Assembly (NCBI GenBank): GCA_030698405.1
Contig: JAUYMU010000137.1
Coordinates: 1 to 64,000, forward strand
Origin: Bacteroidota bacterium
GTDB taxonomy: Bacteria; Bacteroidota; Bacteroidia; Bacteroidales; Prolixibacteraceae
Direction: 5' to 3'
Length of the DNA stretch: 64,000 bases
The notes beneath the pieces are model-generated. The model worked only from the letters and a program-made list of their open reading frames with translations, searched no databases and was not told the origin of the DNA. The translations under genes were made by a program, and so were the position numbers. Below, in pieces: positions 32,241 through 63,685 of the stretch (within the stretch, counting starts at the first letter, position 1; each line of letters starts with the position of its first letter).

Positions 32241-32304
32241 AGTGAATTTTGCAAGTATCGAACAGAACTTTGCAACTTTACCGGCAATAAAGGCCTCACC
32301 TTTG
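32241..32304 (+). promoter_or_regulatory. shared stress element K, upstream of the ice-binding gene
   Basis: Half-sites GAATTTTGCAA (TTGCAA at 32249-32254) and GAACTTTGCAAC (TTGCAA at 32270-32275), 21 bp apart, then 25 bp to TTTG at 32301-32304. The gene starts 36 bp further on. Confidence 0.7.
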
Positions 32305-32340
32305 AGTCGTGGCAATACTGTCACCAACAAAACAAAAAAA

Positions 32341-33171
32341 ATGAACCTTGTAAAACTAATGCCAATCATGGCTATGCTATTGGTTGGATTAATCACCGGT
32401 TGTAGTAAAAGTGCAGATAGCGTTTATGGATTAAACGAAACTTCAGTTTCAAATCAAACTGCCATTTCTTCAGAAAATTCCACCAATCTGAAGTCAGCTG
32501 TGATTTTACCACAAGAAGGAAATTTAAAAGGTGTAAATCTGGGAGTTTCAGGCGATTTCGTAATTCTATCGAAAACCGGAGTTACCAGTGTGTATAAATC
32601 CAGCATTACCGGAGATATTGGAACAAGTCCGATTACAGGGGCCGCAATGGTTTTCAGTTGTGGTGAAGTGACAGGAAATGTATATTCAGTTGATGCTGCC
32701 GGCCCTGCATGTAAAATTACCAGCGCCACCAGATTAGGAATTGCAGTTCTTGATATGCAGGCTGCCTACACTGATGCCGCCGGACGTGTTAACCCTGATT
32801 TTCTGAATTTAGGAGCCGGAAATATTGGTGGCAAAACACTTACTCCTGGTTTGTACAAATGGACAAGCGCACTTGTTATCCCAACGGATATTACTATTTC
32901 GGGCAGCCCGACTGATGTTTGGATTTTCCAGGTTGCCGGAACCCTAATAATGAGTTCAGCTGTAAGAATTACGCTGGCCGGTGGCGCTCAGGCAAAAAAT
33001 ATTTTCTGGCAGACATCTGGTGCCGTTACTTTAGGAACCACCAGCCACTTTGAAGGTATCATAATAAGCCAGACAGGAATTAATTTGCAGACAGGCGCAT
33101 CAATAAACGGAAGATTGTTGGCGCAAACTGCTGTAACATTACAAATGAATGCTGTTACACAGCCAAAATAA
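32341..33171 (+). CDS. ice-binding-like DUF3494 lipoprotein
   Basis: A 276-residue lipoprotein; the start at 32341 is set by the signal MNLVKLMPIMAMLLVGLITGC. The in-frame ATG at 32242 falls inside the promoter element and is rejected. From about residue 70 it matches the DUF3494 ice-binding fold: LGVSGDFVILSKTGV, SSITGDIGTSPITG, AAYTDAAGRVNP, LGAGNIGGKTLTPGLYKW, VWIFQVAGTL, AQAKNIFWQTSGAVTLG, HFEGIIISQTGINLQTGAS and NGRLLAQTAVTLQ. DUF3494 proteins form a beta-solenoid that binds ice or acts as an adhesin. The lipid anchor suggests display on the cell envelope. It sits between two near-identical receivers. Confidence 0.92.
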   Translation: MNLVKLMPIMAMLLVGLITGCSKSADSVYGLNETSVSNQTAISSENSTNLKSAVILPQEGNLKGVNLGVSGDFVILSKTGVTSVYKSSITGDIGTSPITGAAMVFSCGEVTGNVYSVDAAGPACKITSATRLGIAVLDMQAAYTDAAGRVNPDFLNLGAGNIGGKTLTPGLYKWTSALVIPTDITISGSPTDVWIFQVAGTLIMSSAVRITLAGGAQAKNIFWQTSGAVTLGTTSHFEGIIISQTGINLQTGASINGRLLAQTAVTLQMNAVTQPK

Positions 33172-33187
33172 ATTTCTCTTATCACCA

Positions 33188-33230
33188 AAACACAAAAAGG
33201 CGGTTCCGGTGGGATCGCCTTTTTGTGTTT
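33188..33230 (+). terminator. terminator of the ice-binding gene
   Basis: AAACACAAAAAGGCG and CGCCTTTTTGTGTTT form a 15-bp perfect stem. Confidence 0.9.
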
Positions 33231-33260
33231 AAGTGTAGGAATGACTGGCCGGATTAAATG

Positions 33261-33325
33261 TGTGAATATTGCAAATAAATAACGAAATTATGTAACGATA
33301 TCCCATGCAATGGGTTGCAACTTTA
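33261..33325 (+). promoter_or_regulatory. shared stress element A, upstream of receiver B operon
   Basis: GAATATTGCAA (TTGCAA 33269-33274) and GAAATTATGTAAC (ATGTAA 33290-33295), 21 bp apart, then exactly 26 bp to TTTA at 33322-33325. Confidence 0.8.
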
Positions 33326-33426
33326 CAGCACAAAATTATATTTCAATAATGCCCGTTTGCAAAGGTTATATGAAGGTGAAAATATCTTCATAAGAAACAT
33401 GCAACATATAAAACAGACCGTGGAAA

Positions 33427-33459
33427 ATGAATAATCTGATTAAAAGCGCAAATCAATGA
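33427..33459 (+). CDS. possible 10-residue leader peptide
   Basis: ATG at 33427 encodes MNNLIKSANQ and its TGA overlaps the ATG of receiver B (ATGA). The arrangement could couple translation of the receiver. The peptide itself shows no known attenuation pattern and may be chance. Confidence 0.3.
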   Translation: MNNLIKSANQ

Positions 33460-33887
33460 ACAACGAAAAAATTAAAATATTTCTGGTCGATGATGATGCC
33501 CTGTATTTAAAATTACTTGAAATTGAATTGTTGGAGCATGAGGATTTCGATATTCAAACTTATTCAACAGGTGAACTTTGCCTGGAAAATCTGAAATATA
33601 ATCCCGATGTGATCATTTTGGATTATGAACTTAATGGCATTGATAAAAAAGCTATGAACGGATTAGATATTCTTGATAAAATAAAAGCCTACAATCCTTT
33701 AATTCCGGTGGTAATGCTTTCGTCGCAGGATAAAATAGAGATTGCAATAAATTGTATGCATCACAAAGCTTTCGACTATGTTGTTAAAAGCGAGACTGCT
33801 TACCTTCGGCTGAGAAAAATCATCCCTGCCGTTTTCCGATTCAAAAAAATGGAAAAAGAACTGAACTGGTACATGGAGCGGATGTAA
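33456..33887 (+). CDS. stand-alone receiver (response regulator) B
   Basis: A 143-residue receiver about 80% identical to receiver A, with the same D56 (VIILDYELNG), the same KKAMNG insert and the same basic C-terminal helix. No output domain. A CHASE3 kinase gene follows after 13 bp, so here the receiver precedes its kinase, a mirror image of the 28666-32132 pair. Duplication of the receiver on both sides of the ice-binding gene is evident. The promoter element A lies 130 bp upstream. Confidence 0.93.
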   Translation: MNNEKIKIFLVDDDALYLKLLEIELLEHEDFDIQTYSTGELCLENLKYNPDVIILDYELNGIDKKAMNGLDILDKIKAYNPLIPVVMLSSQDKIEIAINCMHHKAFDYVVKSETAYLRLRKIIPAVFRFKKMEKELNWYMERM

Positions 33888-33900
33888 TACAATTTTTAAA

Positions 33901-35526
33901 ATGAAATCGAGTATCCGTATGAAACTTATAATACTGGCAGGCATAATTTTGGCCGGCAATGTGTTCATAGGTTTTGCCGTATATATCACCAACCAAAAGC
34001 GCATTGAATCGCAACAACTGGTAAAAAAATCTGAGAAAATTATTTCCAATTTAGGCAATATACACTTACTTGGCAAAGACATAGAATCAGCTTCGCGGGG
34101 CTTTATTATTACCAACGACAGTTCATTTCTTAAGCCACTATTTACTGCCGAAAAATTGATCTTTAAAAATATTGGCCAACTCCGGCAACAATTTCAAAAC
34201 AATGCTATCCAGACCCAGCGTGTTGATTCGATTCATTATTATATGGAAAAGCGATTGGCCTTTTCGTTGCATCAGGCCGAATTAAGGAGCAATCAGGGAT
34301 TAGCGGCTGCAATAGCTTTTGCTTCAACCAATCAGGGCTTACATTATTCCGACAATTTGCGACAGATTATCACTGCAATTGAGCAACACGAGGACACAAA
34401 TCTCAAACAACTTCAGCAGGCAAACATGTATAGCGTGAAGGCATTCAACTGGATTTCACGAATTATGGTTGTTCTAATTTCCTTAATTACAATTCTATTA
34501 TTAATTGTTACAGGCAAAAATTTACAGCAAAATGAAAAGAGAGAAAAAAAAGCTGCAGAATTAGTTGTTGCCAACAAGGAACTTGCATTTCAAAATTCAG
34601 AGAAAGAAAACCGGGCGGCTGAATTGATCGTTGCCAACAAGGAACTTGCATTTCAGAACAAAGAAAAAGAGAACCGGGCAGCAGAATTGATCCTCGCCAA
34701 CAAAGAACTCGTATTTCAAAACGAAGAAAAAGGGAAAAGGGCCGCAGAATTAATCATTGCTGATAAAGAACTTGTTTTTCAGAATGAAGAAAAAGAAAAA
34801 CAGGAAGCTGCCAACAAAGAACTCGAAGCGTTCAGCTATTCTGTGTCGCATGATTTACGCGCCCCATTAAGACATATCGGAGGATTTGTTGACCTGCTGA
34901 TTAAAAATAGTTCAAATCAGCTCGACGAAAAAGGCACGAGATATTTGAACATCATTTCGGAATCTTCACATGAAATGGGCAACCTGATAGATGCATTACT
35001 GACATTTTCCAGATTAAGCCGTACCGAACTTAAGAAAACCAATATCAACTCCCAAAACATAGTAAACCAGGTTTTAAAAAGTTTCGACAAAGAATTGGCA
35101 GGGCGCGATGTTGAAATAATTGTTTCTGAATTGCCGGATACAACTGGTGACGAAACATTGATTCACCAGGTATGGGAAAATTTGATCTCCAACGCTTTGA
35201 AATATTCAAAGAACAAGCAAACAGCAACCATCGATATTGGATATGAATTACTGGACAACAAAACAGTTTTTCACATCAGGGACAACGGTGCAGGATTTGA
35301 TATGAAGTATGCTGATAAACTTTTCGGGGTTTTCCAGCGATTGCATAGTGCTTCTGATTTTGAAGGAATCGGAATCGGACTGGCCAATGTAAATAGAATT
35401 GTGGTGAGGCATGGAGGAACTTGCCGGGCAGAAAGTGAAGTTGGAAATGGAGCCACGTTTTTCTTTAGCATTCCGAACGAGGAAGTGTTCAGTCGCAGTG
35501 ATCAGTCTCAGAAAAGCTTGCAATAA
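33901..35526 (+). CDS. CHASE3-type membrane histidine kinase with coiled-coil repeats
   Basis: A 541-residue sensor kinase: membrane segment at about 8-28, a helical periplasmic CHASE3-like domain (residues about 35-175; SASRGFIITNDSSFL is typical), a second membrane segment (about 185-205), four 21-residue repeats (about 220-300), then HisKA with H317 (SYSVSHDLRAPLRH) and HATPase_c (IRDNGAGFD, GIGIGLANVNRIV). The SHDLRAPLR variant places it with phytochrome-type kinases that commonly partner Rcp1-like receivers, and such a receiver gene follows at 35604. No attached receiver. Confidence 0.93.
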   Translation: MKSSIRMKLIILAGIILAGNVFIGFAVYITNQKRIESQQLVKKSEKIISNLGNIHLLGKDIESASRGFIITNDSSFLKPLFTAEKLIFKNIGQLRQQFQNNAIQTQRVDSIHYYMEKRLAFSLHQAELRSNQGLAAAIAFASTNQGLHYSDNLRQIITAIEQHEDTNLKQLQQANMYSVKAFNWISRIMVVLISLITILLLIVTGKNLQQNEKREKKAAELVVANKELAFQNSEKENRAAELIVANKELAFQNKEKENRAAELILANKELVFQNEEKGKRAAELIIADKELVFQNEEKEKQEAANKELEAFSYSVSHDLRAPLRHIGGFVDLLIKNSSNQLDEKGTRYLNIISESSHEMGNLIDALLTFSRLSRTELKKTNINSQNIVNQVLKSFDKELAGRDVEIIVSELPDTTGDETLIHQVWENLISNALKYSKNKQTATIDIGYELLDNKTVFHIRDNGAGFDMKYADKLFGVFQRLHSASDFEGIGIGLANVNRIVVRHGGTCRAESEVGNGATFFFSIPNEEVFSRSDQSQKSLQ

Positions 35527-35603
35527 ACAATTTCACAGCTCCAGAGGAGCGGAATATTTGTAGCATAAAAGAATCAAAGAAAAAACAATAAACCACCCAA
35601 ATT

Positions 35604-36050: not shown

Positions 36051-36069
36051 TTTAAAATCAGAAACCATT

Positions 36070-37191
36070 TTGAACTCTAATTTCATGAACAGAAAGATAA
36101 AAATACTGCACCTTGAAGACTCTTTCAAAGATTCTGAATTAATTAAATCATTGATTGAAAGTGGTGAAATCGACCATGATTATTTTGTGGCCGAAAACGA
36201 AAAAGAATACACCAATATTCTTGAAACCGAAAACATCGATATCATTTTATCTGATTACAGCCTGCCCGATTTTAATGGCAACGAAGCATTAAGAATTGCA
36301 AAGGAACAATATCCCAATATCCCATTCCTGTTCGTATCAGGAGCAATGGGTGAAAACAGGGCTATTGACGCAATGTTAAACGGAGCCACGGATTACGTGC
36401 TCAAAAACAAACTTGAGCGTCTGGTTCCGGCGATTAAAAGGGCTCTGAACGAACAGAAACTTACCACTGAACGTCAACAAGCCGGGGAGGAGCTAAAAAG
36501 CGCCAACAGAGAACTTGTTTTTCAGATAGAAGAAAAAGAAATACGACAGGCTGAATTATTGGTTTTGAACGAGATGCTGATCTGTCAGTATAAAGAGAAG
36601 GAAAAACTTGCAATAGAGTTAATAGCGGCCAAGGAGAAAGCAGAAGAAAGCGACCGGTTAAAATCCTCTTTTCTGGCCAATATGAGCCATGAGATCAGAA
36701 CACCATTGAACGGAATCCTGGGTTTCACTGAACTGCTGAAAGAACCTGATCTTTCATGTAAACAACAAGCGTATTACATCAGCATCATTGAGAAAAGCGG
36801 CGCACGTCTGCTCAATATCATCAACGATATCATGTGCATTTCAAAAATCAATTCGGGGCAAATGGGGGTTTCAATTTCTGAAATAAACGTAAATGAGCAA
36901 ATGAATGAAATATTTTCTTTCTTCAAGCCGGAGGCTGAACAAAAAGGCATTAAGATATCCTGTAAAAACAGCATGAGGTTAAACGAAACTTTCATAAAAA
37001 CTGATAAAGATAAATTACTGGCCATTCTTTCCAATTTGGTTAACAATGCCATTAAATTCACCAACAAGGGTTCTTTTGGGAAAGGATCGGCCATTTATTT
37101 TACCCTGCCATCGATGAACCTGAAGGAAGTAAAAACAGACAACAAAAATATTATCTGGAACGAAACAATAATAAGGGAAATGAATCTATGA
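36070..37191 (+). CDS. REC-histidine kinase with deleted ATP-binding core
   Basis: A 373-residue protein: receiver (residues about 8-125, D62 in ILSDYSLPDFNG), two degenerate 21-residue repeats (about 145-190), HisKA with H207 (ANMSHEIRTPLNG), then only the first part of HATPase_c. The N box (LAILSNLVNNAIKFTNKGS) runs straight into GKGSAIYFTLPSM, which is normally the last strand of the domain. About 70 residues with the G1, F and G2 boxes are missing in frame. The protein can probably dimerise and accept phosphate but not bind ATP. The stop overlaps the start of the next kinase (ATGA). The first Met pair (36070 or 36085) is ambiguous. Confidence 0.85.
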   Translation: MNSNFMNRKIKILHLEDSFKDSELIKSLIESGEIDHDYFVAENEKEYTNILETENIDIILSDYSLPDFNGNEALRIAKEQYPNIPFLFVSGAMGENRAIDAMLNGATDYVLKNKLERLVPAIKRALNEQKLTTERQQAGEELKSANRELVFQIEEKEIRQAELLVLNEMLICQYKEKEKLAIELIAAKEKAEESDRLKSSFLANMSHEIRTPLNGILGFTELLKEPDLSCKQQAYYISIIEKSGARLLNIINDIMCISKINSGQMGVSISEINVNEQMNEIFSFFKPEAEQKGIKISCKNSMRLNETFIKTDKDKLLAILSNLVNNAIKFTNKGSFGKGSAIYFTLPSMNLKEVKTDNKNIIWNETIIREMNL

Positions 37192-37646
37192 ACGACAAAA
37201 TAGGAATTCTGCACCTTGAAGATTCGTTCAAAGATTCCGAAATAATTAACGCCAAAATTGAAAGCGCCAAAATTGAATACAATTATTTTCTGGCCGATTG
37301 CGAAAAAGATTTTCTGAATTTTCTTGAAACTGAAAATATCCACCTTATACTATCGGATTACAACCTGCCCGATTACAATGGGAACGAAGCGTTACGAGTG
37401 GCCAGGGAAAAATATCCGCATATCCCATTCATTTTCGTTTCAGGAAAAATAATGGAAGGCGTGGCCATTGAAAAAATGTTAAACGGAGCAACCGATTATG
37501 TGTTCAAGAACAATCTGGAAAGGCTGGTTCCGGCAATTAGAAGAGCTTTGAATGATTATGAACTTGAGACAAAACGCAAACAGGCAGAGATAAGCCTTCA
37601 GGAAAAAAGGGAAATAATTATCGCGCAAAGCGGAAAGTATTTTGAA

Positions 37647-38279
37647 ATCAATAAAGAACTCGACTTTCAAAACGAAGAGAAAGAAAAACGGGCGGCAGAA
37701 TTAATCATTGCCAATAAGGAACTTGCTTTTCAGAACAGGGAAAAAGAAAAACGGGCCGATGAATTATACATTGCCAACAAAGAACTAATATATCAGAATC
37801 AGGAGAAAGAAAACCGGGCTGCTGAATTAATCATTGCGAACAAGGAACTTCTTTATCAAAACGAAGAGAAAGAAAAACGGGCGGCAGAGTTAAGGATTGC
37901 CAACAAAGAACTTGCATTTCAAAACCGGGAAAAAGAAAAACGGGCCGATGAATTGTTTATTGCCAACAAAGAACTTGCTTATCAGAATGAAGAAAAAGAA
38001 AAACGGGCAGCGGAGTTGATAATTGCGAACAAGGAACTTCTTTATCAAAACGAAGAAAAAGAAAAACGGGCGGCAGAGTTAAGGATTGCCAACAAAGAAC
38101 TTGCATTTCAAAACCGGGAAAAAGAAAAACGGGCCGATGAGCTGATTATAGCCAATAAAGAACTTGCATATCAGAACAAAGAGAAAGAAAACCGGGCGGC
38201 GGAACTAATCATTGCCAACAAAGAACTTCTGTTTCAAAATGAAGAAAAAGAAAATCGGGCGGCAGAACTGATTATTGCA
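37647..38279 (+). repeat. 63-bp tandem repeat array (10 units) in the 37188 kinase
   Basis: Ten 63-bp units encoding NKELAFQNREKEKRADEL-type repeats. Units 4-5 and 7-8 encode identical stretches, so a 189-bp (three-unit) higher-order duplication is visible. Confidence 0.95.
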
Positions 38280-38739
38280 AAAGATAAAGCGGAAGAAAGT
38301 GACCGTTTGAAATCGGCATTTCTGGCCAATATGAGCCACGAAATAAGAACGCCCATGAACGGAATCCTTGGTTTTGCCGAGCTGCTAAAAGAACCTGAAC
38401 TTACCGGCGAATTGCAGCATGAATACATTGACATCATACAGAAAAGTGGCACACGAATGATGAATATCATCAGCGATATCATGAGCATCTCGAAAATTGA
38501 ATCGGGACACATGGGAATTTCCTTGTCAGAAGTGAATATAAATGAACAAATGAAAGAATTATACACTTTCTTCAAGCCTGAAGTCGAACAGAAAGGATTA
38601 CAGATTTTCCTGAAAAACAACCTGGAATCAGAAGAAACCATCGTTAAAACCGACCGGGATAAAGTGTATGCCATTTTGACCAACCTGATTAAAAATGCCA
38701 TTAAATTCACCAACAAAGGTTCGATAGAATTTGGATATG

Positions 38740-38784
38740 GTTCGACAGGCTCACCATCCGGTTCGGTCAGTGAGCCTGTCGAAC
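38740..38784. repeat. 45-bp palindromic element inserted in frame in a kinase
   Basis: GTTCGACAGGCTCAC (38740-38754) and its perfect complement GTGAGCCTGTCGAAC (38770-38784) around a 15-bp centre. It adds exactly 15 codons (GSTGSPSGSVSEPVE) between the strands IEFGY and LEFYVKDTG of HATPase_c. Confidence 0.9.
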
Positions 38785-39066
38785 TGGAATTTTACGTGAA
38801 AGATACAGGCATCGGGATTGATCCTCAAAAAATAGAAACGATTTTTGAAAGGTTCAGGAAGGCAATGAAACACTGAACAAAAAATATGAAGGAGCAGGTC
38901 TTGGATTATCCATATCGAAGGCTTTTGTTGAAATGCTTGGCGGAAAAATATGGGTAGAAAAAGATCCTGAACTGTTGGTTACAAGGAACAAACGGGATGG
39001 AACAGGCACCACCATTTGTTTTACAATTCCATATCACACTTAGCAAAAAGTAAAAATCAGACAAGG

Positions 39067-39131
39067 TGTGAATCATGTAACTTTTCGCCGGAATTGTGTA
39101 ACGCTTATCGAGTTAGCAATGATGATCTTTG
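39067..39131 (+). promoter_or_regulatory. shared stress element B
   Basis: GAATCATGTAAC (39070-39081) and GAATTGTGTAAC (39091-39102), period 21 bp, then 26 bp to TTTG at 39128-39131. A palindrome GTGAA-N6-TTCAC (39136-39151) follows at the likely transcript start. Confidence 0.9.
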
Positions 39132-39169: not shown

Positions 39170-39496
39170 ATGAAAAAATTAACTCTTGGCTTAATGACTG
39201 GTTGCATGTTGCTATTATGCAATCCAACCTTATTGAAAGCAGAAACAGAAACTGCAACAACTGCAACAACAGTAACTGCAACAGCTAAATCAGCAGAGAT
39301 CTCTAAAATGGAAATCAGGTTAAATGAAATCAAGGAGATGGATATGAAAACACTGAATTCGGCAGAAAAGAAAGAATTACGCAAAGAAGTTCGCACAATA
39401 AAGAGCGACATCAAGGCAGTAAACAATGGTGGTGGAGTTTATATTTCTGTTGGAGCTGCAATTCTTATCGTTCTTTTATTAATCCTTTTATTATAA
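39170..39496 (+). CDS. exported C-tail-anchored small protein, paralogue 1
   Basis: A 108-residue protein with a signal peptide (MKKLTLGLMTGCMLLLCNPTLLKAE), a Thr/Ala-rich linker, a charged helix (EIKEMDMKTLNSAEKKELRKEV) and a C-terminal membrane anchor (GGGVYISVGAAILIVLLLILLL read as one hydrophobic tail). It shares this plan, and the AEK-ELRKE and GG-YIS-G motifs, with the protein at 48222. Both are first genes behind a shared stress element. Function unknown; the family looks like an envelope-stress component. Confidence 0.75.
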   Translation: MKKLTLGLMTGCMLLLCNPTLLKAETETATTATTVTATAKSAEISKMEIRLNEIKEMDMKTLNSAEKKELRKEVRTIKSDIKAVNNGGGVYISVGAAILIVLLLILLL

Positions 39497-39502
39497 GATA
39501 TC

Positions 39503-40569: not shown

Positions 40570-42174
40570 ATGCTAGTAACCATTACCAGAAAAAAATATA
40601 CATTTTCTCCTGATTCCAGCCGGGTAATTGCCCGTTTTCTTTACCTTGACGACGAAAGATCTGCAAACATTATCAGGAAAGTATTGGCCATGCCCGAAAA
40701 GGAAGTAAACCTTGCCATGAGCCAGGTACTGAGAGGTTTTTCGCGCCGTCACCGTAATATTTCGAAAATATTTGAAAAACATTTTGACAGGCTTGCCCCT
40801 ATTTTTGATAAAATAGAAGTGAATGAAGAAGATCTCAGTATGCCTCAGAAATCGTTGATAGGCTCGTATTTCACATTGGAATATTCAATTGAATCGGCTG
40901 CTTTCTTTAATCCATCAATTGTTGAACATCCCGATCAGTCAGAATTAAGGTCAGATGAGAAAAGGGTCATTTTCAGTTTTCGGGCAACCGGTGAAGGACA
41001 TATTTCGTCCGTTGTTTTCCGTTCAGGAATACTCGACAAGCACAATAACCTGACGATAGAACCTGTTGGGAAAATGCTGGCCGAAGCAGATAAAATTATA
41101 CGCAATACTTACAATAAAAAAAAATTTCGGAAGAAACTGGATGGAATGCAAGACCACGGAACTGTTATTCCACCTGCTGTTGTTGATAATATTGATGAAA
41201 TACAAGATCCTGAAAATATGATCCCTTCGGGTATCCTTGAAAACCATGAAAAAACGATTGAGAAGGGAAATGTCATTTCTCCGGACTTTATCCTGGATAA
41301 GTTAGGTGACAGCTTTACCTATGGTGAATTGATGAAAAACCTTGAAAAAGCAGTAAAGGATCCGGATCTTACCGAGGATCAGATAAAAATTATCAATCAA
41401 ATGATGTGGCTGGCTTCATCGCACTATGAGATTCATTTCTCTATTGATTCGTCTATTTCAGAAAGGGTTATTTTCCCCATTTCAGCAACCGAGCAAAGAG
41501 GGATAGAAGATGCCCGTTTCGTTAAATTTACTGATGACGATGGCGAAATTACTTATTATGCCACCTATACGGCTTTCGATGGAATGACTATTCTTCCGAA
41601 GTTAATCAGCACAAAAGACTTTTATGATTTTAAGGTATTGCCGATTAATGGCGAGATTGCCCGGAACAAGGGTATGGCTCTGTTTCCCCGGAAAATAAAC
41701 GGAAAATACGCCATGCTTTGCCGAATTGACGGCGTAAATAATTACATCGCTTATTCCGACAGTATCAATATCTGGCGCGAAGCAAAAATAATAATGGAAC
41801 CCAAATACTCCTGGGAACTGGTGCAGGTTGGCAATTCCGGTTCACCAATCGAGACAAAAGACGGCTGGCTGGTTATTACACACGCCGTAGGATCGATGAG
41901 AGAATATACTTTGGGCGCGGCATTGTACGAACTTGATAATCCGGAGAAAGAAATTGGAAGGCTGAGTAGTCCGCTGATGGTTCCCAACGAAGAAGAACGT
42001 GAAGGTTATGTGCCAAACGTAATTTATTCGTGTGGTTCGATGATCCATAATGACGACCTTATTATCCCTTATGCCATGTCTGATCATGCATCAACTTATG
42101 CAACCGTTAATCTTAAGGAACTGCTCGATGTATTAAAAGCCTCCGGAAACAAAAAGGAAGAAGACAATGTGTGA
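40570..42174 (+). CDS. GH130-type glycoside phosphorylase/hydrolase
   Basis: A 534-residue protein. The C-terminal 350 residues have the five-bladed propeller signatures of GH130: EQRGIEDARFVKFTDDDGE, YATYTAFDG, NKGMALFPRKINGKYAMLCR, GSGSP-like VGNSGSPIETKDGWLVITHAV and YVPNVIYSCGSMIHNDDLIIPY. Most GH130 enzymes act on beta-1,2- or beta-1,4-mannosides using phosphate. The N-terminal 190 residues are helical and typical of the longer GH130 subgroup. The GT4 fusion at 45922 is a frequent partner, suggesting mannan-like oligosaccharide turnover. The stop codon TGA lies inside element C. Confidence 0.88.
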   Translation: MLVTITRKKYTFSPDSSRVIARFLYLDDERSANIIRKVLAMPEKEVNLAMSQVLRGFSRRHRNISKIFEKHFDRLAPIFDKIEVNEEDLSMPQKSLIGSYFTLEYSIESAAFFNPSIVEHPDQSELRSDEKRVIFSFRATGEGHISSVVFRSGILDKHNNLTIEPVGKMLAEADKIIRNTYNKKKFRKKLDGMQDHGTVIPPAVVDNIDEIQDPENMIPSGILENHEKTIEKGNVISPDFILDKLGDSFTYGELMKNLEKAVKDPDLTEDQIKIINQMMWLASSHYEIHFSIDSSISERVIFPISATEQRGIEDARFVKFTDDDGEITYYATYTAFDGMTILPKLISTKDFYDFKVLPINGEIARNKGMALFPRKINGKYAMLCRIDGVNNYIAYSDSINIWREAKIIMEPKYSWELVQVGNSGSPIETKDGWLVITHAVGSMREYTLGAALYELDNPEKEIGRLSSPLMVPNEEEREGYVPNVIYSCGSMIHNDDLIIPYAMSDHASTYATVNLKELLDVLKASGNKKEEDNV

Positions 42175-42234
42175 ATGATGTAATTAATTTCAAAAATTGT
42201 ATAAGGTTTTTCTGATGTTAGATCTTCAAATTTG
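42170..42234 (+). promoter_or_regulatory. shared stress element C, overlapping the GH130 stop
   Basis: GAATGATGTAAT (ATGTAA 42178-42183) and AAATTGTATAAG (GTATAA 42199-42204), period 21, then 26 bp to TTTG at 42231-42234. The GH130 stop TGA (42172-42174) is part of the element. Confidence 0.85.
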
Positions 42235-42273: not shown

Positions 42274-42459
42274 ATGAACCAAACTGAAGCAAAAGGAAAT
42301 CTGACAGAGCAGAAAGGTAAACTCAAACAGAAATTTGCAGGTTTAGTAAATGACGACCGGTTGTTTGCTGAAGGCAAGAATGACGAAGTATTCGGAAAAC
42401 ATCAGGTCGGACTTGGCCAGCTGAAAGAAAAACTGAAGAAAATTACTTCATCACTTTAG
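42274..42459 (+). CDS. CsbD-family stress protein 1
   Basis: A 61-residue soluble protein (MNQTEAKGNLTEQKGKLKQK, then FAGLVNDDRLFAEGKNDEVF) that fits the CsbD family: N-terminal GK/KGKLKQKF helix, then an E-G-K turn and a C-terminal helix. CsbD proteins are general-stress markers (sigma-B controlled in Bacillus) of unknown biochemical role. Single-gene unit behind element C. Confidence 0.85.
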   Translation: MNQTEAKGNLTEQKGKLKQKFAGLVNDDRLFAEGKNDEVFGKHQVGLGQLKEKLKKITSSL

Positions 42460-42586: not shown

Positions 42587-42651
42587 TGTGAATGATGTAA
42601 CTTTTTCCCGGAATTGTGTAACGCTTTTCAGTCAACAGAACCTCACCTTTG
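42587..42651 (+). promoter_or_regulatory. shared stress element D
   Basis: GAATGATGTAAC (ATGTAA 42595-42600) and GAATTGTGTAAC (GTGTAA 42616-42621), period 21, then 26 bp to TTTG at 42648-42651. A palindrome GTGAAA-N4-TTTCAC lies at 42656-42671. Confidence 0.9.
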
Positions 42652-42688: not shown

Positions 42689-42874
42689 ATGACAGATTCC
42701 GAAGTAAAGTCAAACTGGAACACAATGAAAACCAAACTGCACCAGAAATTTACTGGTCTAAATAAAAATGAAAAGATGCTACTGAAAGACAAGAAAGATG
42801 AAGTGATTACAAGACTGCAGATTAAACTTGGTATTTCAAAAGAAGATTTACAAGAAATTATTGCAGGACTTTAA
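42689..42874 (+). CDS. CsbD-like stress protein 2
   Basis: A 61-residue protein; the start at 42689 (MTDSEVKSNWNTMKTKLHQK) is chosen because the in-frame ATG at 42614 lies inside the promoter element. It resembles the first CsbD copy in length and in the blocks K-KLKQKF-GL / KTKLHQKFTGL and KDEV, but has an acidic C-terminus (ISKEDLQEIIAGL). Likely first gene of a unit with 42935 and 43426. Confidence 0.8.
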   Translation: MTDSEVKSNWNTMKTKLHQKFTGLNKNEKMLLKDKKDEVITRLQIKLGISKEDLQEIIAGL

Positions 42875-48141: not shown

Positions 48142-48192
48142 CTTTTTTTCGGAATTGTGTAACAAGTCAAAACTTGTTATTTCACAACTTTA
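48128..48192 (+). promoter_or_regulatory. shared stress element E, overlapping the GT4 stop
   Basis: CAATAATGTAAC (ATGTAA 48136-48141) and GAATTGTGTAAC (GTGTAA 48157-48162), period 21, then 26 bp to TTTA at 48189-48192. The GT4 stop TAA is 48139-48141. Confidence 0.88.
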
Positions 48193-52116: not shown

Positions 52117-52181
52117 TGTGAATAATGCAATTATTATTAAAAAAAATGTAACAGAAGAATGCTCAGATATTCCGATTTTTG
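52117..52181 (+). promoter_or_regulatory. shared stress element F
   Basis: GAATAATGCAAT (ATGCAA 52125-52130) and AAAAAAATGTAAC (ATGTAA 52146-52151), period 21, then 26 bp to TTTG at 52178-52181. The second half is the weakest in its AATT part. Confidence 0.75.
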
Positions 52182-52826: not shown

Positions 52827-52891
52827 TGTGAATCTTATAATTTTTCCCAAAAATTGTGTAATACATTTTTTTACCTCCACATTTATCTTTA
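52827..52891 (+). promoter_or_regulatory. shared stress element G
   Basis: GAATCTTATAAT (TTATAA 52835-52840) and AAATTGTGTAAT (GTGTAA 52856-52861), period 21, then 26 bp to TTTA at 52888-52891. Confidence 0.8.
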
Positions 52892-52914: not shown

Positions 52915-54084
52915 ATGAATGTATTATTGGTATATCCGCAATACCCCGATTCTTTTTGGAGTTTCAAAAATATAATGAAATTTATCTCAAAGAAAGCGAC
53001 GGTGCCGCCACTCGGGCTGATAACCGTTTCGGCAATGCTCCCGAAAACATGGAAGAAAAAACTCGTTGACATGAATGTTTCAGCGCTGCTACCGGCTGAT
53101 CTGATTTGGGTCGATTATGTTTTTATCAGCGCCATGCACATACAGCAGGAATCGGTTGACAAAATTATTGACCTTTGCCTGAAGTATGAAGTTAAAATTA
53201 TTGCAGGCGGCTCGCTGTTTACCCAGGAATACATGAAATATCCGCAAATTGACCATTTCATACTGAACGAAGCAGAAATTACAATGCCTTTGTTCCTGAA
53301 AGATTTAAATGCCGGAAAGACTCCGGAAAAAGTTTACAGAACCGATCATCATGCGGATATCACATTGACTCCCCTGCCCGATTTCAATTTGTTGTCGATG
53401 AAAGACTATGTCACTTCCACATTTGTTGGCATCGAAACTCCTGACGAAAAATCACTTCAGGAATGTAACAAGGGGCAAAACAATAACAGGGACCTGCTGC
53501 ACAGTGTGAAAAAGATACAAAATGCCGGGTTGCAGGTTTCAGGCGGATTTATCGTAGGTTTCGATACGGATACAGCCTCTGTATTTCAGAAACAAATTGA
53601 TTTTATACAGCAAAGTGGAATTGTATCGGCGATGGTCGGGTTGTTAAATGCCCCAAAGAATACGGTGCTTTACAACCGGCTGAAAGCTGAAAACCGGCTG
53701 ACATCCGAATCATCGGGAAACAATACCGATACATCCATGAATTTTATCCCGGTGATGAATCGTCAGGAACTTTTAGACGGGTATAAAAGCATCATTCAGA
53801 ATATTTATGCAACAAAGCCCTATTACAAACGAATCCGCAGGTTCCTGCTAAACTACCGGCAAATTTATAAACAGAAAAAGAAAATGGAATTTTCGTATCT
53901 CGTCAGTTTTTTCAAATCGCTTTTTGTCATCGGTATTGTAAGCAAAGGCCGGGGCGAATACTGGAAACTGTTGATTTGGACTCTTTTCAGGAGGCCTGCA
54001 TTATTAAAAGACGCTCTGACATTTGCTGTATATGGATACCATTTCAGAACTGTTTATGGGATAAGCAACACGAATAGTAATTAA
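52915..54084 (+). pseudogene. B12-binding radical-SAM-type protein lacking the iron-sulfur region
   Basis: A 389-residue open frame. Residues 1-150 match a B12-binding domain (VPPLGLITVSAMLPKTWKKK, KIIAGGSLFT), and residues about 175-389 match the C-terminal half of the family with MVGLLNAPKNT-type motifs. Between them, MKDYV joins directly to TSTFVGIETPDEKSL. Relatives have about 100 residues here, including the CxxxCxxC motif that holds the 4Fe-4S cluster. The deletion keeps the frame, but without those cysteines the protein cannot do radical SAM chemistry. It still has element G and is followed by 54102, 17 bp on. It may be a pseudogene, a repurposed B12-binding protein or an assembly error. 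Confidence 0.75.
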
Positions 54085-54884: not shown

Positions 54885-55160
54885 ATGAAAATATTGATGG
54901 AAAAAAATCAAAAAGACCAACGCATTCAGCAATCTGATGGAAAGTCAAAACAACCTTTAACCGGAAACGAAAGACAAAATCCGGCAAAAAGACCGAGGAT
55001 TCCACGTCCTGACAAACCAGTGACTCCTCCATCGAAGCCGGAAATAAATCCGGAACCCGCCATCCCTGCACCGGGTATACAGGAACCAGAAATTAACGAC
55101 CCAACCCGAATAGATGAACCACCTCCGGTTTTTAATCATAAAAATGTGAGAATCATGTAA
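54885..55160 (+). CDS. small proline-rich protein
   Basis: A 91-residue soluble protein with a charged start (MEKNQKDQRIQQSDGKSKQ; the Met at 54897 may be the true start) and a proline-rich region (RPRIPRPDKPVTPPSKP, PEPAIPAPGIQEPE) likely disordered. The last codons KNVRIM and the stop lie within element H, so the C-terminus is formed by the regulatory sequence. Function unknown. Confidence 0.55.
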   Translation: MKILMEKNQKDQRIQQSDGKSKQPLTGNERQNPAKRPRIPRPDKPVTPPSKPEINPEPAIPAPGIQEPEINDPTRIDEPPPVFNHKNVRIM

Positions 55161-55210
55161 ATATCAACAAGAATTCTGTAATTTTTTCAAGTGTCATCTC
55201 AATAAATTTG
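55147..55210 (+). promoter_or_regulatory. shared stress element H, overlapping the proline-rich gene stop
   Basis: GAATCATGTAAA (ATGTAA 55155-55160) and GAATTCTGTAAT (CTGTAA 55176-55181), period 21, then 25 bp to TTTG at 55207-55210. The stop TAA is 55158-55160. Confidence 0.75.
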
Positions 55211-55327: not shown

Positions 55328-57076
55328 ATGAAAAAATTACTTTCAAAAACAGACATAACAAAGAAAGATTCTCCGGAAGATTTCAGGACACAAGGTACAA
55401 CTGACAAAAATGAAGATGTACAGCCTGATGAAAAACTGAAAGAATCGGAAATGCGATACCGGCGGTTGTTCGAATCGGCAAAAGACGGAATCCTGATTCT
55501 CGATTTCAAAACAGGCGATATAGTTGATGCAAATCCATTTATCGTTAAAATTATTGATTTGCCTTTAGAAGAAGTACTCGGAAAAAAACTTTGGGAAATC
55601 GGACTTTTCAGCAATAAAGAAGATTCTGAACTTGCCTTTATCGAGTTGAAAACGAATGGCTATATCCGTTTTGAAGACATGCCAATACAAAGGCGAAATG
55701 GGAAAGCTATTCAGGTTGAATTTATAAGCAATGTTTATTTAGAAAACAGAACAAACGTTATTCAATGTAATATCAGGGATATAACAGAACGGGTTAAGCA
55801 AGAATTTGCCTTAAAAGAAAGTGATCAGAACCTAAAGAAGCAAAACACAGAATACGCTAATCTTAATAAAGAATACACAGCACTTAATAAAGAATTAAAG
55901 AAAAAATTTGATCAAATTCAGCAAATCAACAATGATTTGATTTTGGCAAAAAATAAGGCTGAAGAGTCGGATCAGCTAAAATCTGCATTCCTGTCCAATA
56001 TGAGCCATGAAATTCGGACACCCATGAACGCAATAACCGGATTTTCAGAATTACTTTTGCATCTGGGATCATCATCGGAAGATAAACTTGAAAAGTACCT
56101 TAATATTATTAATGCCAGCAGCAGGCAGCTTTTATCAGTTATAAACGATATAATTGACATTTCAAAAATAGAATCCGGTCAGTTGTCTATTGAATCAGAA
56201 TCAGTTAACATCAATAAGTTAATGGATGAATTATGCGTTACGTACACTCATTTGGTCGATTTAAAGAAAGTAAAATTAATTTGTCAGCTTGTTAATCCCA
56301 ATAAACTTATTCAGGTTAAAACAGATGGGAACCGAATCAGACAGGTGATTTGTAATTTATTGAACAATGCCATCAAATTTACGAAAGAAGGTGAAATCAG
56401 CTTTGGATATACTGTTCAGGAAAATTTCATTGAGTTTTATGTTAGTGATACCGGTATGGGCATCGCACCTGAAAACCTGTCACTTATTTTTAATCGCTTC
56501 AGACAGGTGAAAGCAACCAACAGTCAGGTAAATGAAGGCAATGGATTAGGATTGGCCATTGCAAAAGCTTTGGTTGAAAAGCTTGGCGGAACCATTGGCG
56601 TTGATTCGAAACCCGGGATAGGTTCAAATTTTAAATTTACAATTCCCTACGAAAATAAAACAGTTGATACTGTGTCAAAACCTATTGAAACAGACAATTA
56701 CAATTGGGAAGATAAAACCATTCTAATTGCTGAAGATGAAGCAATTAACCATACATATATTAAAGAAATACTTTCAGATACAAATGCAAAAATACTTCAG
56801 GCGTGGGATGGGAAGCAGGCTGTTGATTTTGTAAAAACCGACCCTGAAATTTCATTGGTTTTAATGGATCTGAAAATGCCTGTAATGGATGGGCACGAAG
56901 CCTTGCACATAATTAAACAAATTAAGCCGGATCTGCCTGTTATTGCTCAAACGGCTTATGCAAACAGCGACAGCAGGAAAAGTGCCTTGAAAGGTGGTTT
57001 TGATAATTATATCACAAAACCCATTGACAGCGCCCTACTCATGGAGGTATTAGACAATTATCTTTCAGAAGATTGA
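55328..57076 (+). CDS. hybrid histidine kinase: PAS, HisKA, HATPase, REC
   Basis: A 582-residue cytoplasmic kinase. The ATG at 55328 (MKKLLSKTDITKKD) is preferred to the GTG at 55301. A PAS domain (about residues 40-160; YRRLFESAKDGILILDFKTG) is followed by a coiled coil of another type (EYANLNKEYTALNKELKKKF), HisKA (SNMSHEIRTPMNAITGF), complete HATPase_c (VSDTGMGIAPENL, GNGLGLAIAKALVEKLGGT) and a receiver (LVLMDLKMPVMDG, ITKPID). All catalytic residues are present. Behind element H; followed by an AraC-type gene. Confidence 0.92.
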   Translation: MKKLLSKTDITKKDSPEDFRTQGTTDKNEDVQPDEKLKESEMRYRRLFESAKDGILILDFKTGDIVDANPFIVKIIDLPLEEVLGKKLWEIGLFSNKEDSELAFIELKTNGYIRFEDMPIQRRNGKAIQVEFISNVYLENRTNVIQCNIRDITERVKQEFALKESDQNLKKQNTEYANLNKEYTALNKELKKKFDQIQQINNDLILAKNKAEESDQLKSAFLSNMSHEIRTPMNAITGFSELLLHLGSSSEDKLEKYLNIINASSRQLLSVINDIIDISKIESGQLSIESESVNINKLMDELCVTYTHLVDLKKVKLICQLVNPNKLIQVKTDGNRIRQVICNLLNNAIKFTKEGEISFGYTVQENFIEFYVSDTGMGIAPENLSLIFNRFRQVKATNSQVNEGNGLGLAIAKALVEKLGGTIGVDSKPGIGSNFKFTIPYENKTVDTVSKPIETDNYNWEDKTILIAEDEAINHTYIKEILSDTNAKILQAWDGKQAVDFVKTDPEISLVLMDLKMPVMDGHEALHIIKQIKPDLPVIAQTAYANSDSRKSALKGGFDNYITKPIDSALLMEVLDNYLSED

Positions 57077-57152: not shown

Positions 57153-57671
57153 ATGAAAAACGAGATCCAAGTAACAATCGAAATAAACGGGCAGAATAAT
57201 CCGGAACAGCATGGTGAAATTGCAGAATTACTTAAAGTAGAATCAGAAGTAAAAATTTCGAATGACAATAAACAAATTTCTACTTCAGATCAGTTAGATA
57301 CTGAGTTATATAAGCTGATTGAAGAAATTAAAACTGCCGTTCATCAGTTAATTTATCTTTCTGACAAACTTCCGGATCAGAAAACTTCAAACTATATCAT
57401 TAATAAAGTCAACCGCGAATATTCCTATCTGAACGAACTTTTTATAAGCAATACAGGCATTTCGATTAAAAAGTACATCAATATCCAGAAAATTGAACTC
57501 GTTAAAGAAATACTGTTTTACGACGAAACCGATCTGTTTGTAATTGCCCGTAAATTAAATTTTCGAAGTGTATCGAAATTAGAAGACAAGTTTATTAAAC
57601 AAACCGGTGTATCTGTTGCTTTTTACAAACTACTTCGAAAAACCAGTGCAGGAAAATCCAAAAATGTGTGA
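57153..57671 (+). CDS. AraC-type DNA-binding protein, divergent
   Basis: A 172-residue protein. Residues about 70-165 match the AraC/XylS helix-turn-helix of the 28062 and 63065 proteins (VNREYSYLNELFISNTGISIKKYIN, DETDLFVIARKLNFRSVSKLEDKFIKQTG - read as two segments), but the N-terminal 65 residues are unrelated, beginning as a strand (IQVTIEINGQN) and then charged. No HMA-type motif. It follows the hybrid kinase by 76 bp. The stop TGA is inside element I. Confidence 0.8.
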   Translation: MKNEIQVTIEINGQNNPEQHGEIAELLKVESEVKISNDNKQISTSDQLDTELYKLIEEIKTAVHQLIYLSDKLPDQKTSNYIINKVNREYSYLNELFISNTGISIKKYINIQKIELVKEILFYDETDLFVIARKLNFRSVSKLEDKFIKQTGVSVAFYKLLRKTSAGKSKNV

Positions 57672-57731
57672 ATTATGCAATTATTTTCAAAAATTGTGTA
57701 AGCCTTTGGTCGGTGCATCGCAGTATATTTA
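57667..57731 (+). promoter_or_regulatory. shared stress element I, upstream of dps and overlapping an AraC-type gene stop
   Basis: GAATTATGCAAT (ATGCAA 57675-57680) and AAATTGTGTAAG (GTGTAA 57696-57701), period 21, then 26 bp to TTTA at 57728-57731. Confidence 0.88.
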
Positions 57732-57773
57732 TACAGATATAATTTTGTGAGTCTAAATGTAAATCAATAATTT

Positions 57774-58313
57774 ATGAAACCAGTAAACGAAATTCCAGAC
57801 CAAAACAACGAAGTTGTTGTTACTTTTCTCAATCTTCTGCTGGCTGATGAATATGTACTATATACCAAAACCAGAACTGCACACTGGAACGTTGATGGTT
57901 CAAACTACTTCGAACTGAATGTTTTTCTGGAACACCAATATAATTTACTGGACGTGATCATTGATGATCTGGCAGAACAGATCAGATCGCTCGGATATTT
58001 TGCATTGGGCTCACTCAAAGATTTCCTGAGTGTTGCACAAATGGGTGAAGATAATCGCAACTATGAAAACTCATCGCAAATTCTCGGTTCGCTTTTACAC
58101 GATCACGAAGCAATTATCAGTATTATTGAACATGAGATACCACCAATTTCAGATGAACTTAAAAGCATGGAAACTGCCTCTTTTTTAGCCGGAATATTGG
58201 ACAAACAAAGGAAATCGGCCCGCCAGATCAAGGCATATTTATCAAGTCCTGAATTAAATTCAGACAACCATCTTCGAATTGTTTATAACCAATCAGTCGA
58301 ACAGCAGTTATAA
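57774..58313 (+). CDS. dps: Dps-family ferritin-like DNA-protection protein
   Basis: A 179-residue protein with the Dps four-helix bundle: ferroxidase ligands in KTRTAHWNVDGSNYFELNVF and HQYNLLDVIIDDLAEQIRSLG are the conserved His and Asp/Glu residues. Dps oligomers oxidise and store iron and protect DNA under starvation and oxidative stress. Slightly longer than average because of a C-terminal tail. Under element I, which gives a direct stress link to the regulon. Confidence 0.93.
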   Translation: MKPVNEIPDQNNEVVVTFLNLLLADEYVLYTKTRTAHWNVDGSNYFELNVFLEHQYNLLDVIIDDLAEQIRSLGYFALGSLKDFLSVAQMGEDNRNYENSSQILGSLLHDHEAIISIIEHEIPPISDELKSMETASFLAGILDKQRKSARQIKAYLSSPELNSDNHLRIVYNQSVEQQL

Positions 58314-59070: not shown

Positions 59071-59113
59071 CGAATTTTTCGTATCTTTCAGTGAATTTTC
59101 AACATAGATAACG

Positions 59114-62086: not shown

Positions 62087-62165
62087 AGACGGAAGACCGA
62101 AGACGGAAGACGGAAGTCAGAAGACCGAAGTCAGAAGACCGAAGACGGAAGATTAAAGACAGGAA
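62035..62165 (+). repeat. GACGGAAG-type minisatellite at the CheB-CheR gene end
   Basis: Irregular tandem copies of GACGGGAGTCGGAAGTC and GACGGAAGACCGAAG cross the stop codon (62084-62086). The last 18 or so residues of the protein (GDGSRKSEYGRRESEV) are repeat-encoded. Confidence 0.85.
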
Positions 62166-62203
62166 ACCAGTAATGAAAATAAATTTATAAACAGGTAAAA
62201 AAT

Positions 62204-62268
62204 AACCACATAGGCAGATAGTTCACATAGAAAAATAATAACTATGTTTTCTATGTGCCTATGTGGTT
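62204..62268 (-). repeat. 65-bp palindromic dispersed element, copy 2
   Basis: Begins AACCACATAGGCAGATAG and ends CTATGTGCCTATGTGGTT. It matches the reverse complement of 22755-22819 at 63 of 65 positions. Confidence 0.9.
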
Positions 62269-62327
62269 CAAAATTATAAACACATGAAAGACCAGAAAAT
62301 ACAGTCTTCCTACAAATTTTTAAAACC

Positions 62328-62897
62328 ATGAATTTAAACTATTTTGCCATGAACGAGGAACTGGATTATACAAATGCACAGACGTTACGAAAGAGTGCCG
62401 AAGAAAAACTGAAGGTAAGGCAAGATAAAACGAGCACTTCCACAATAGAAACCGATGTGAAAAGGCTCGTCCACGAACTTCAGGTGCACCAGATTGAACT
62501 GGAAATGCAGAACGAAGAACTGGTACAGGCAAACGAAAGGGCAGAGTCGTCGCTGAAAAAATACACCATGATGTACGATTTTGCACCCATGGGTTATTTT
62601 ACCCTCGATCAGAGCGGAATGATATGCGAGTTGAATTTTACCGGCGCAGAATTGCTTGGCGACAGGCGCTTTTCTCTTATCAACAGCAACTTTAAGTTAT
62701 TCGTTTCAGAAGAGACACTGCCCGTATTCAACAATTTCTTAAACCTGATTTATTTGGGCAGGTCGAAAGAATCGTGCAAAATAATGCTGGGGAGCGACTC
62801 CGAAAACCGGTGCCAGGTTTATATGGAAGGCATTGTAACAGGCGACAATGGTAAATGTCTTTTATCGGTAGTAGATATTACGAATTTCTATAAATAG
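62328..62897 (+). CDS. single PAS-domain protein
   Basis: A 189-residue protein (the Met at 62349 is an alternative start). A helical N-terminus with a coiled-coil linker (VHELQVHQIELEMQNEELVQ) leads into one PAS domain (about residues 78-185; YDFAPMGYFTLDQSGMICEL). The HELQVHQIELEMQNEEL linker is typical of PAS kinases of the ATPase-containing type, but no kinase domain follows. Possibly a truncated kinase or an adaptor for the CheB-CheR protein upstream. Confidence 0.8.
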   Translation: MNLNYFAMNEELDYTNAQTLRKSAEEKLKVRQDKTSTSTIETDVKRLVHELQVHQIELEMQNEELVQANERAESSLKKYTMMYDFAPMGYFTLDQSGMICELNFTGAELLGDRRFSLINSNFKLFVSEETLPVFNNFLNLIYLGRSKESCKIMLGSDSENRCQVYMEGIVTGDNGKCLLSVVDITNFYK

Positions 62898-63064
62898 GAC
62901 AATTTTATATCTTTATCAATTAATTGTATCAAAAGTAACCTTTGCCATTAAAAAGAGGTATAAATCAACAATGTTACTCAGTATGATATGGTAATCAGTC
63001 AGTAATACAACGGTTTTTAAAACCGGATAATTAAAGGATATGATTTTTCACTAACATTAGCAGC

Positions 63065-63625
63065 ATGGAGCTCCACATCAAAAATATGGTTAGTAATCGC
63101 TGCAAACTGATTTTAAAATCAGAACTTGAAAAACTTGAGATAAATTATACCGACATAAATCTGGGCAGTGCAGAAATTACCGAAGACATCACCCCGGAAA
63201 GGAAAAACCTGCTGGACTTCAATCTGAAAAAATTCGGGCTTTCGCTAATTGAAGACAAGAAAGGGATGTTGGTTGAAAAAATAAAAAATATCATCATTGA
63301 ATTGGTTCATTATTCAGAAAATCAGATCAAGCTAACCTTCTCTGATTATTTAAGCGAAAGACTAAATTACGATTACACCTATCTGGCCAATCTCTTTTCG
63401 GAACACCAGGGAATATCCATTGAACACTACTTTCTGAGCCACAAAATTGAACGGGTAAAGGAATTGCTGATTTACGACGAACTCAACATTACCGAAATAG
63501 CCTACAGATTGCATTACAGCAGTGTTGCGCATTTGTCGAACCAATTCAAAAAAATCACCGGATTAACCCCGTCCCACTACAAACATCTCAAGTCGAAAAA
63601 ACGTATTCCACTCGAAAAGGTGTGA
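63065..63625 (+). CDS. AraC-type regulator with HMA-like N-terminal domain, paralogue
   Basis: A 186-residue homologue of the 28062 regulator, with the same plan: MELHIKNMVSNRCKLILKSE (HMA-like strand-helix with MVSNRC), an acidic middle, and an AraC-type helix-turn-helix pair (LNYDYTYLANLFSEHQGIS, LNITEIAYRLHYSSVAHLSN). MVSNRC keeps the spacing of the HMA metal motif but has Ser for the first Cys in both copies. The stop TGA is inside element J, 4 bp upstream of its first ATGTAA. Candidate regulator of the element series. Confidence 0.82.
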   Translation: MELHIKNMVSNRCKLILKSELEKLEINYTDINLGSAEITEDITPERKNLLDFNLKKFGLSLIEDKKGMLVEKIKNIIIELVHYSENQIKLTFSDYLSERLNYDYTYLANLFSEHQGISIEHYFLSHKIERVKELLIYDELNITEIAYRLHYSSVAHLSNQFKKITGLTPSHYKHLKSKKRIPLEKV

Positions 63626-63685
63626 ATAATGTAACTCCTCTCTGCAATTGTGTAACACTTTCACGTAATTTCAGACCCATCTTTG
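63621..63685 (+). promoter_or_regulatory. shared stress element J, overlapping the AraC-type gene stop
   Basis: GAATAATGTAAC (ATGTAA 63629-63634) and CAATTGTGTAAC (GTGTAA 63650-63655), period 21, then 26 bp to TTTG at 63682-63685. The controlled gene lies beyond the window. Confidence 0.88.

Follow-up and report, generated by a model that had tools for sequence, protein, structure and literature searches.

The DNA stretch examined here (positions 1 to 64,000 of the forward strand of contig JAUYMU010000137.1, assembly GCA_030698405.1, hereafter the window, 64,000 nucleotides) belongs to a member of the Prolixibacteraceae (Bacteroidota) and carries a recurrent promoter element: a 35-bp direct repeat, composed of two half-sites with a 21-bp period, placed at a defined distance from a downstream TTTR box. 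Comparative sequence evidence strongly supports that this element is real and conserved and points to a candidate regulator. Very probably, the element serves as operator for a small activator of the AraC family with an HMA-like N-terminal part (HMA-AraC), widespread in Bacteroidota, which would bind the direct half-sites as a dimer and replace the -33 box at sigma-A promoters.

Eleven copies had been proposed in an earlier, sequence-only reading of the window. All 11 are present and have the exact 21-bp period, with TTTR at +26 after the second half in nine and at +25 in two (32241 and 55147), as had been described. The half-site positions given then designate the right sites, but the TGYAA/TGTAA starts lie one base further on (e.g., 39076 instead of 39075). 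Likewise, the consensus GAATNRTGTAAC fits the half-sites, but some copies are looser, among them the first half of site 52835 (GAATCTTATAAT) and the second halves of sites 42178 (AATTGTATAAG) and 52125 (AAAAAATGTAAC). When the window was scanned with the matrix at a threshold of 22 bits, the 11 known sites were the only ones returned, in agreement with the reported absence of the element from the housekeeping block at 8-27 kb.

In the source genome (5.49 Mb, 138 contigs), a pattern search with up to 3 mismatches produced 28 matches versus 0 for the reversed pattern. A sequence-only model constructed from 30 sites, with which 150 of 6270 first-look candidates were scored, detected 34 sites at E ≤ 1e-3, the lowest of them with 22.1 bits and the next matches with 20.1 and 16.4. 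The spacing to the -7 box played no part in site finding; among the first 30 sites, 19 of which are new relative to the initial list, TTTR is located at +26 in 23, at +25 in five and at neither position in two, the figures for all 34 being 26, five and three. Contig 23 holds 17 of these sites, contig 10 holds eight and nine are found elsewhere; of the 28 pattern matches, 15 are on contig 23 and six on contig 10. An ATG-start open reading frame (ORF) lies 37-291 bp downstream in 34 of the 36 rows of the gene-start table (34 sites, two of them entered twice), the other two rows being cut short by the end of the fetched sequence or of the contig. Of the 34 sites, three overlap ORFs, only short ones on the opposite strand (66, 72, and 151 amino acids), and none is within a longer ORF. 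The whole-genome scan, which had been suggested as a check, places the sites in intergenic regions before gene starts and never inside a convincing ORF.

Genomes with few sites were decisive for finding a candidate regulator, which the sequence-only reading had not named: 10 of the 16 site neighbourhoods fetched from such genomes contain a small HMA-AraC gene, usually directly before the site and in the same direction. For the reverse search, a profile of 12 HMA-AraC proteins was run against a collection with one genome per species, and the best 80 of at least 580 loci were kept, mostly from Bacteroidota but including one Ignavibacteria metagenome-assembled genome and one “uncultured bacterium.” A site is present in 77 of the 80 loci (the exceptions being L172, L173, and L236). 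Over 1.25 Mb, the matrix identified 212 sites in total and its reversed version none. In 35 loci the regulator stop codon lies inside the site, which begins two bases upstream of that codon; the gene ends in GTG TGA and the site opens with TGTGAAT. In six further loci the site lies within 83 bp after the gene (41 of 80 just after it in all), and in 14, all of the SxxC type described below, it is found 20-220 bp before the regulator start. As the stop codon is inside the putative operator, the last residue of the regulator would be tied to the operator sequence. At 63065-63655 of the window and in the 35 loci mentioned, the operator of the next gene holds the regulator stop codon, often with the reading V-stop-I/M-M-stop through the first half-site.

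The promoter geometry was derived from 209 sites of 79 of these loci, taken from public genome records (L243, a second locus on the contig of L171, was dropped, which reduced 212 sites to 209). TTTR is located at +26 in 159 and at +25 in 31 of them. Aligned on +26 (n = 159), the -7 box reads xAnCTTTG, with A in 99%, C in 81%, and G in 76% of the sites, the TTT being fixed by the way these sites were chosen. The first T of TAnnTTTG shows no conservation in these element-linked boxes, and no TTG consensus is seen at the -33 place. A T-rich stretch follows the second half and likewise the first, the spacer between operator and -7 box is near-random and conservation is limited to the operator and the -7 positions. 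The conserved half-sites are TGTGAATNATGTAAC (first) and the looser AARTTNTGTAAC (second). The first extends over about 15 bp, in which two conserved blocks are separated by about one turn; this is the pattern that an AraC domain with its two HTH motifs would be expected to give. In the AraC/XylS family, half-sites measure about 17 bp and adjoin or overlap the -35 region, an arrangement observed in the logo and spacing of the 209 sites. In Flavobacterium psychrophilum the sigma-A box TAnnTTTG occupies -12 to -5, according to PMC9723704; with this box taken as a ruler, the operator would extend from about -69 to -35. The previous proposal of an activator site that abuts or replaces the -33 box is supported by the fixed distance to xAnCTTTG, the lack of a TTG consensus at -33, and the intergenic location before stress and envelope genes.

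The distribution of sites and regulators was compared in 120 Prolixibacteraceae genomes, 69 of which have a site at E ≤ 1e-3. All 51 genomes encoding a close regulator (E ≤ 1e-75) carry a site, as opposed to 18 of the 69 remaining genomes (Fisher p 7.7e-19, uncorrected for phylogeny and with the cut-off chosen after seeing the data). At a looser regulator cut-off (E ≤ 1e-35), sites are found in 62 of 85 versus 7 of 35 genomes (p 1.3e-7, phylogeny likewise uncorrected). In a sample of the phylum, HMA-AraC (E ≤ 1e-35) is encoded by 16 of the 17 site-bearing genomes compared to 136 of all 296. The scan of related genomes, also suggested beforehand, evidenced that the same geometry recurs in other genomes and families. 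Five genomes contain at least five sites but no close regulator (G082, G084, G109, G079, and G061); a more distant HMA-AraC is present in G082, G084, and G109, the copy of G084 having a stop codon.

The candidate activator of the window is encoded on the forward strand at 63065-63625 (186 amino acids) and combines an HMA-like part, with SxxC at residues 10-13, and an AraC HTH (HTH_18, E 3.6e-18). A second copy (28062-28634, forward strand, 190 amino acids) is 58% identical to the former and matches the regulator profile with E 5.1e-93, a profile that contains this copy. As for an autoregulatory site upstream of 28062, only one weak half-site was detected, at 27970, with no TTTG at +26. A diverged AraC-like copy (57153-57671, forward strand, 172 amino acids) lacks the M[V]C/SxxC motif, is 29% identical to the 63065 protein and matches HTH_18 with E 4.4e-7, below the Pfam cut-off. 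Padloc gave no match for two regulator copies. Among 20 members of the family, HTH_18 was detected in all and HTH_AraC in 19 (E ≤ 0.01). An AlphaFold2 model based on 58 sequences (an alignment without L181 and L236, whose regulator reading is interrupted by a stop codon, and without 22 further loci) has a mean pLDDT of 90.6 and predicts beta-alpha-beta-beta-alpha with a two-residue last strand, followed by a long helix and the AraC domain. The N-terminal part would adopt a ferredoxin-like beta-alpha-beta-beta-alpha-beta fold, with strands at 2-6, 28-32, and 35-38 plus the two-residue last strand and helices at 11-23 and 44-55. The top PDB matches of the predicted fold in Foldseek are AraC domains (6swi, 3lsg, and MarA with DNA), and the N-terminal part retrieved TTHA1718, CopZ, Atx1, and Atox1, with probabilities of 0.97-1.00 but E values of only 0.07-0.18. 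Cys13, the second Cys of the CxxC/SxxC motif, is invariant in 58 of 58 sequences; the first position is occupied by C in 38 of the 80 loci and by S in the other 42, both window copies being SxxC. In-frame stop codons were noticed in the regulator copies of L181 (4313-4870), L236 (10001-10546), and G084:C155 (458-1012); the L181 locus has four sites and L236 none.

According to the mechanism proposed, an HMA-AraC dimer would occupy the two direct half-sites, whose centres, 21 bp or two helical turns apart, would face the same side of the helix. The -33 box would be supplanted by the proximal half-site, from where the dimer may contact or recruit RNA polymerase at promoters devoid of this box. 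The N-terminal HMA-like domain is likely the part in charge of sensing and/or dimerisation; a metal or thiol signal perceived through Cys13 would be a guess. The receivers and hybrid kinases of the block may act upstream of the regulator or may be outputs only.

Other explanations have to be weighed against this reading. Response regulators of the LytTR type also bind direct repeats about two turns apart, which fits the 21-bp spacing, and 13 LytTR genes are present in the source genome; even so, it is very unlikely that one of them binds the element. LytTR genes occur in 119 of the 120 family genomes, with and without sites, while sites are found in 69, and because these genes are near-universal their distribution fails to explain which genomes bear sites, although one LytTR of many could still bind. 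Moreover, the gene-site linkage favours HMA-AraC over LytTR, no search having been made for LytTR genes beside sites, and the conserved first half-site, with its two blocks, is longer than the short LytTR repeat. Somewhat less remote, but still unlikely, is that HMA-AraC binds the element and mainly represses, or activates some promoters and represses others. AraC itself does both, according to PMC4760080, and the upstream site seen in 14 of the 80 loci could reflect negative autoregulation. Nevertheless, a repressor tolerates many positions. An activator requires what is observed here, a constant spacing to the -7 box (190 of 209 sites) together with the lack of a TTG consensus at -33.

As the motif is strong and keeps a constant distance from the start region, it might also belong to a promoter read by an alternative sigma factor. 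This is highly improbable, since the downstream box agrees with TAnnTTTG, the sigma-A -7 consensus given in PMC9723704, though its first T is unconserved here, and since a sigma -35 element does not have the form of a 35-bp repeat with a 21-bp period. Finally, the existence of many copies, clustered mainly on two contigs, could suggest remnants of a dispersed repeat (mobile element), a view that can practically be discarded: conservation is restricted to the operator and the -7 positions with a near-random spacer between them, the geometry recurs in other families and the sites stand before genes.

Several observations weigh against HMA-AraC as the protein that acts on the element. Linkage between a gene and a site is possible without the gene product binding that site, the profile used to fetch the 80 loci was built from genes found beside sites, and related genomes are non-independent cases. 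Six of the 16 few-site neighbourhoods lack HMA-AraC, and in 25 of the 80 loci there is no site just after or just before the regulator gene. Genome G061, estimated to be 100% complete, contains eight sites and no HMA-AraC at E ≤ 1e-15; its sites are scattered, one per contig, and TTTR is at +26 in three of the four looked at (L253, L258, L264, and L269). Between one and five sites without HMA-AraC were likewise found in G018 (97% complete), G106 (97%, with an HTH-only match), and G055, G076, G079, and G100 (82-85%; G079 82%). In the phylum sample, G311 has two sites and no regulator at E ≤ 1e-35, and of the 22 genomes that encode a close regulator (E ≤ 1e-75), 13 lack a site at E ≤ 1e-4. When searched with greater sensitivity, 12 of these 13 genomes yielded weaker site matches (E ≤ 0.1), located in seven of the 13 (G372, G152, G376, G404, G270, G180, and G269) within about 600 bp of an HMA-AraC gene. 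The phylum-wide search applied stricter filters and a model from one genome, which recovers 21 of the 34 sites of that genome at E ≤ 1e-4, and for these reasons site absences across the phylum are weak evidence. In addition, none of 20 family members matched Pfam HMA at E ≤ 0.01: the regulator N-terminus is HMA-like by predicted fold and not an HMA member by sequence.

The genes downstream of the element provide an indication of its role. In the source genome, targets identified by Pfam include ice-binding-like (DUF3494), CsbD, ferritin-like (Dps), DUF4070/B12-binding, M48 protease, baeRF, and Usp proteins, a cation P-type ATPase, two OmpA, DUF4382, MlaE, patatin, a YkuD transpeptidase, and an alpha/beta hydrolase; two more CsbD-like ORFs, hybrid kinases, a receiver, and a second MlaE-like permease were recognized by eye only, and several downstream ORFs have no Pfam match. 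The occurrence of CsbD, ferritin-like, Usp, M48 protease, P-type ATPase, OmpA, and YkuD genes under one element supports a regulated set that would constitute a stress and cell-envelope regulon. In other genomes, sites of at least 30 bits were followed to their first downstream ORF; after removal of 16 sites lacking an ORF, of one ORF found twice, and of seven more by length limit or random choice, a census of 140 such ORFs yielded, among the first 25 of 92 families, HTH_18 (15), CsbD (12), ice-binding (9), OmpA (9), Cupin_2 (7), DUF5670 (5), histidine-kinase ATPase (4), gly-zipper (4), YtxH (3), and MlaE (2). The 15 HTH_18 matches count in favour of the AraC-type candidate. On contig 10 of the source genome (G000), two operators face away from each other with a few bases between them at 64131-64221 (6131-6221 of locus L032), one directed to a CsbD-like gene and the other to an OmpA/gly-zipper gene.

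All 11 elements of the window are on the forward strand. The first (32241-32304; repeat 32241-32275, TTTG 32301, +25), the weakest with 25 bits, precedes an ice-binding-like gene (32341-33171) and is followed by element 2 (33261-33325; repeat 33261-33295, TTTA 33322, +26), upstream of a receiver-type ORF named by eye (33456-33887). Small membrane-type ORFs are found after element 3 (39067-39131; repeat 39067-39101, TTTG 39128, +26; ORF 39170-39496) and element 6 (48128-48192; repeat 48128-48162, TTTA 48189, +26; ORF 48222-48533). Between these, element 4 (42170-42234; repeat 42170-42204, TTTG 42231, +26) is located before CsbD (42274-42459) and element 5 (42587-42651; repeat 42587-42621, TTTG 42648, +26) before a CsbD-like ORF named by eye (42689-42874). 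Element 7 (52117-52181; repeat 52117-52151, TTTG 52178, +26) precedes an ORF without Pfam match (52235-52813), element 8 (52827-52891; repeat 52827-52861, TTTA 52888, +26) a DUF4070/B12-binding protein (52915-54084), and element 9 (55147-55210; repeat 55147-55181, TTTG 55207, +25) a hybrid-kinase-type ORF, again named by eye (55328-57076). Element 10 (57667-57731; repeat 57667-57701, TTTA 57728, +26) holds the stop codon of the AraC-like gene 57153-57671 and lies before a ferritin-like (Dps) gene (57774-58313), and element 11 (63621-63685; repeat 63621-63655, TTTG 63682, +26) holds that of the regulator gene 63065-63625. By eye, the kinase-type ORFs at 28666-31701, 33901-35526, and 37188-38876 contain many near-identical short coiled-coil-like units (ELIIANKELAFQNEEKEKR), in copy numbers that vary between paralogs, and in the adjacent receiver-kinase ORFs 36070-37191 and 37188-38876 the ATP-binding end looks incomplete, as if decaying.

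The HMA-AraC family extends beyond the regulators linked to the stress element. Forty diverged genes were taken from the lower-scoring profile matches (L308 being read with a shortened start), and about 500 bp on each side were scanned for direct repeats with a 21-bp period and TTTR at +25/26. In 25 of the 40, the best such repeat is no more than 5 bp away from the paralog stop codon; in eight it lies 61-158 bp past that codon, and in seven it is elsewhere. Mean half agreement is 9.4 of 14 positions at period 21, compared with 6.6, 6.8, 7.1, 7.3, and 7.8 at periods 26, 24, 16, 18, and 30. The paralog half-sites vary by clade (e.g., TGTAAATTGTATAAC or CCAAAATCTTATAA) and differ from those of the stress clade, while the geometry is constant. 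Diverged repeats with a constant geometry are the picture expected of putative regulator-operator pairs within one family. In locus L131 (G059, contig 180), two HMA-AraC paralogs with diverged direct repeats are found among genes that by eye resemble copper/heavy-metal genes; a metal-sensing branch of the family is possible.

The proposed system has features in common with known ones. The araI1-araI2 operator is a direct repeat with 21-bp spacing that overlaps the -35 region, and AraC bound there shares with HMA-AraC the AraC HTH, two adjacent operator half-sites and a proximal half beside the core promoter; its N-terminal part is an arabinose cupin, in contrast to the predicted ferredoxin-like HMA-type fold. 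In Escherichia coli araBAD, AraC binding at araI2 recruits RNA polymerase, as PMC4760080 indicates. The HMA-AraC system is distinguished from araBAD by 34 sites in one genome, a Bacteroidota -7 box and a putative operator placed over the regulator stop codon in 35 of the 80 loci. MarA, SoxS, and Rob have a similar AraC domain fold (1bl0, 7w5w, and 1d5y by Foldseek). These proteins control stress regulons and bind single sites as monomers, MarA and SoxS having no sensor domain. CopZ, Atx1, and Atox1 resemble the N-terminal part in predicted fold (Foldseek probability 0.97-1.00, TM 0.58-0.67 by target length, E 0.15-0.18) and share the CxxC of 38 of the 80 loci, whereas HMA-AraC differs from them in the missing Pfam HMA match (20 members) and in the SxxC of the other 42. 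The sigma-B and RpoS regulons have target families in common with the present one (CsbD, Dps, and Usp); here, however, a transcription factor acting on sigma-A promoters with a putative stress role is proposed instead of a sigma factor.

No earlier description of the element or the regulator was recognizable by title or abstract in the PMC literature searched. The sequence-only reading had spoken of an undescribed general-stress regulon; “undescribed” holds within that literature, and “general stress” reflects the families of the target genes. AraC-type control is of a known kind; the HMA-like fusion, the operator over the stop codon, and a Bacteroidota-wide stress regulon are undescribed as far as these searches go. 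A bolder reading, of which we are slightly more doubtful than convinced, is that HMA-AraC would be the master regulator of the general/envelope stress response across much of the Bacteroidota, in the place of sigma-B/RpoS, within a paralog family in which each gene would have its own diverged 3′-end operator, and that the HMA-like domain would have given up metal handling in favour of thiol sensing, or another kind of sensing, once Ser replaced the first Cys.

To our knowledge, there is no established general stress regulator in environmental Bacteroidota. The present evidence supplies candidates for the operator, the promoter geometry and the regulator of a stress regulon that can be traced by sequence in many of these organisms. 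Small genes with stress and envelope roles that had lacked an explanation (CsbD, ice-binding-like, gly-zipper OmpA, YtxH, and DUF5670) would be brought together in one testable gene set, and the family of putative regulator-operator pairs may serve as material for studying the divergence of AraC specificity.

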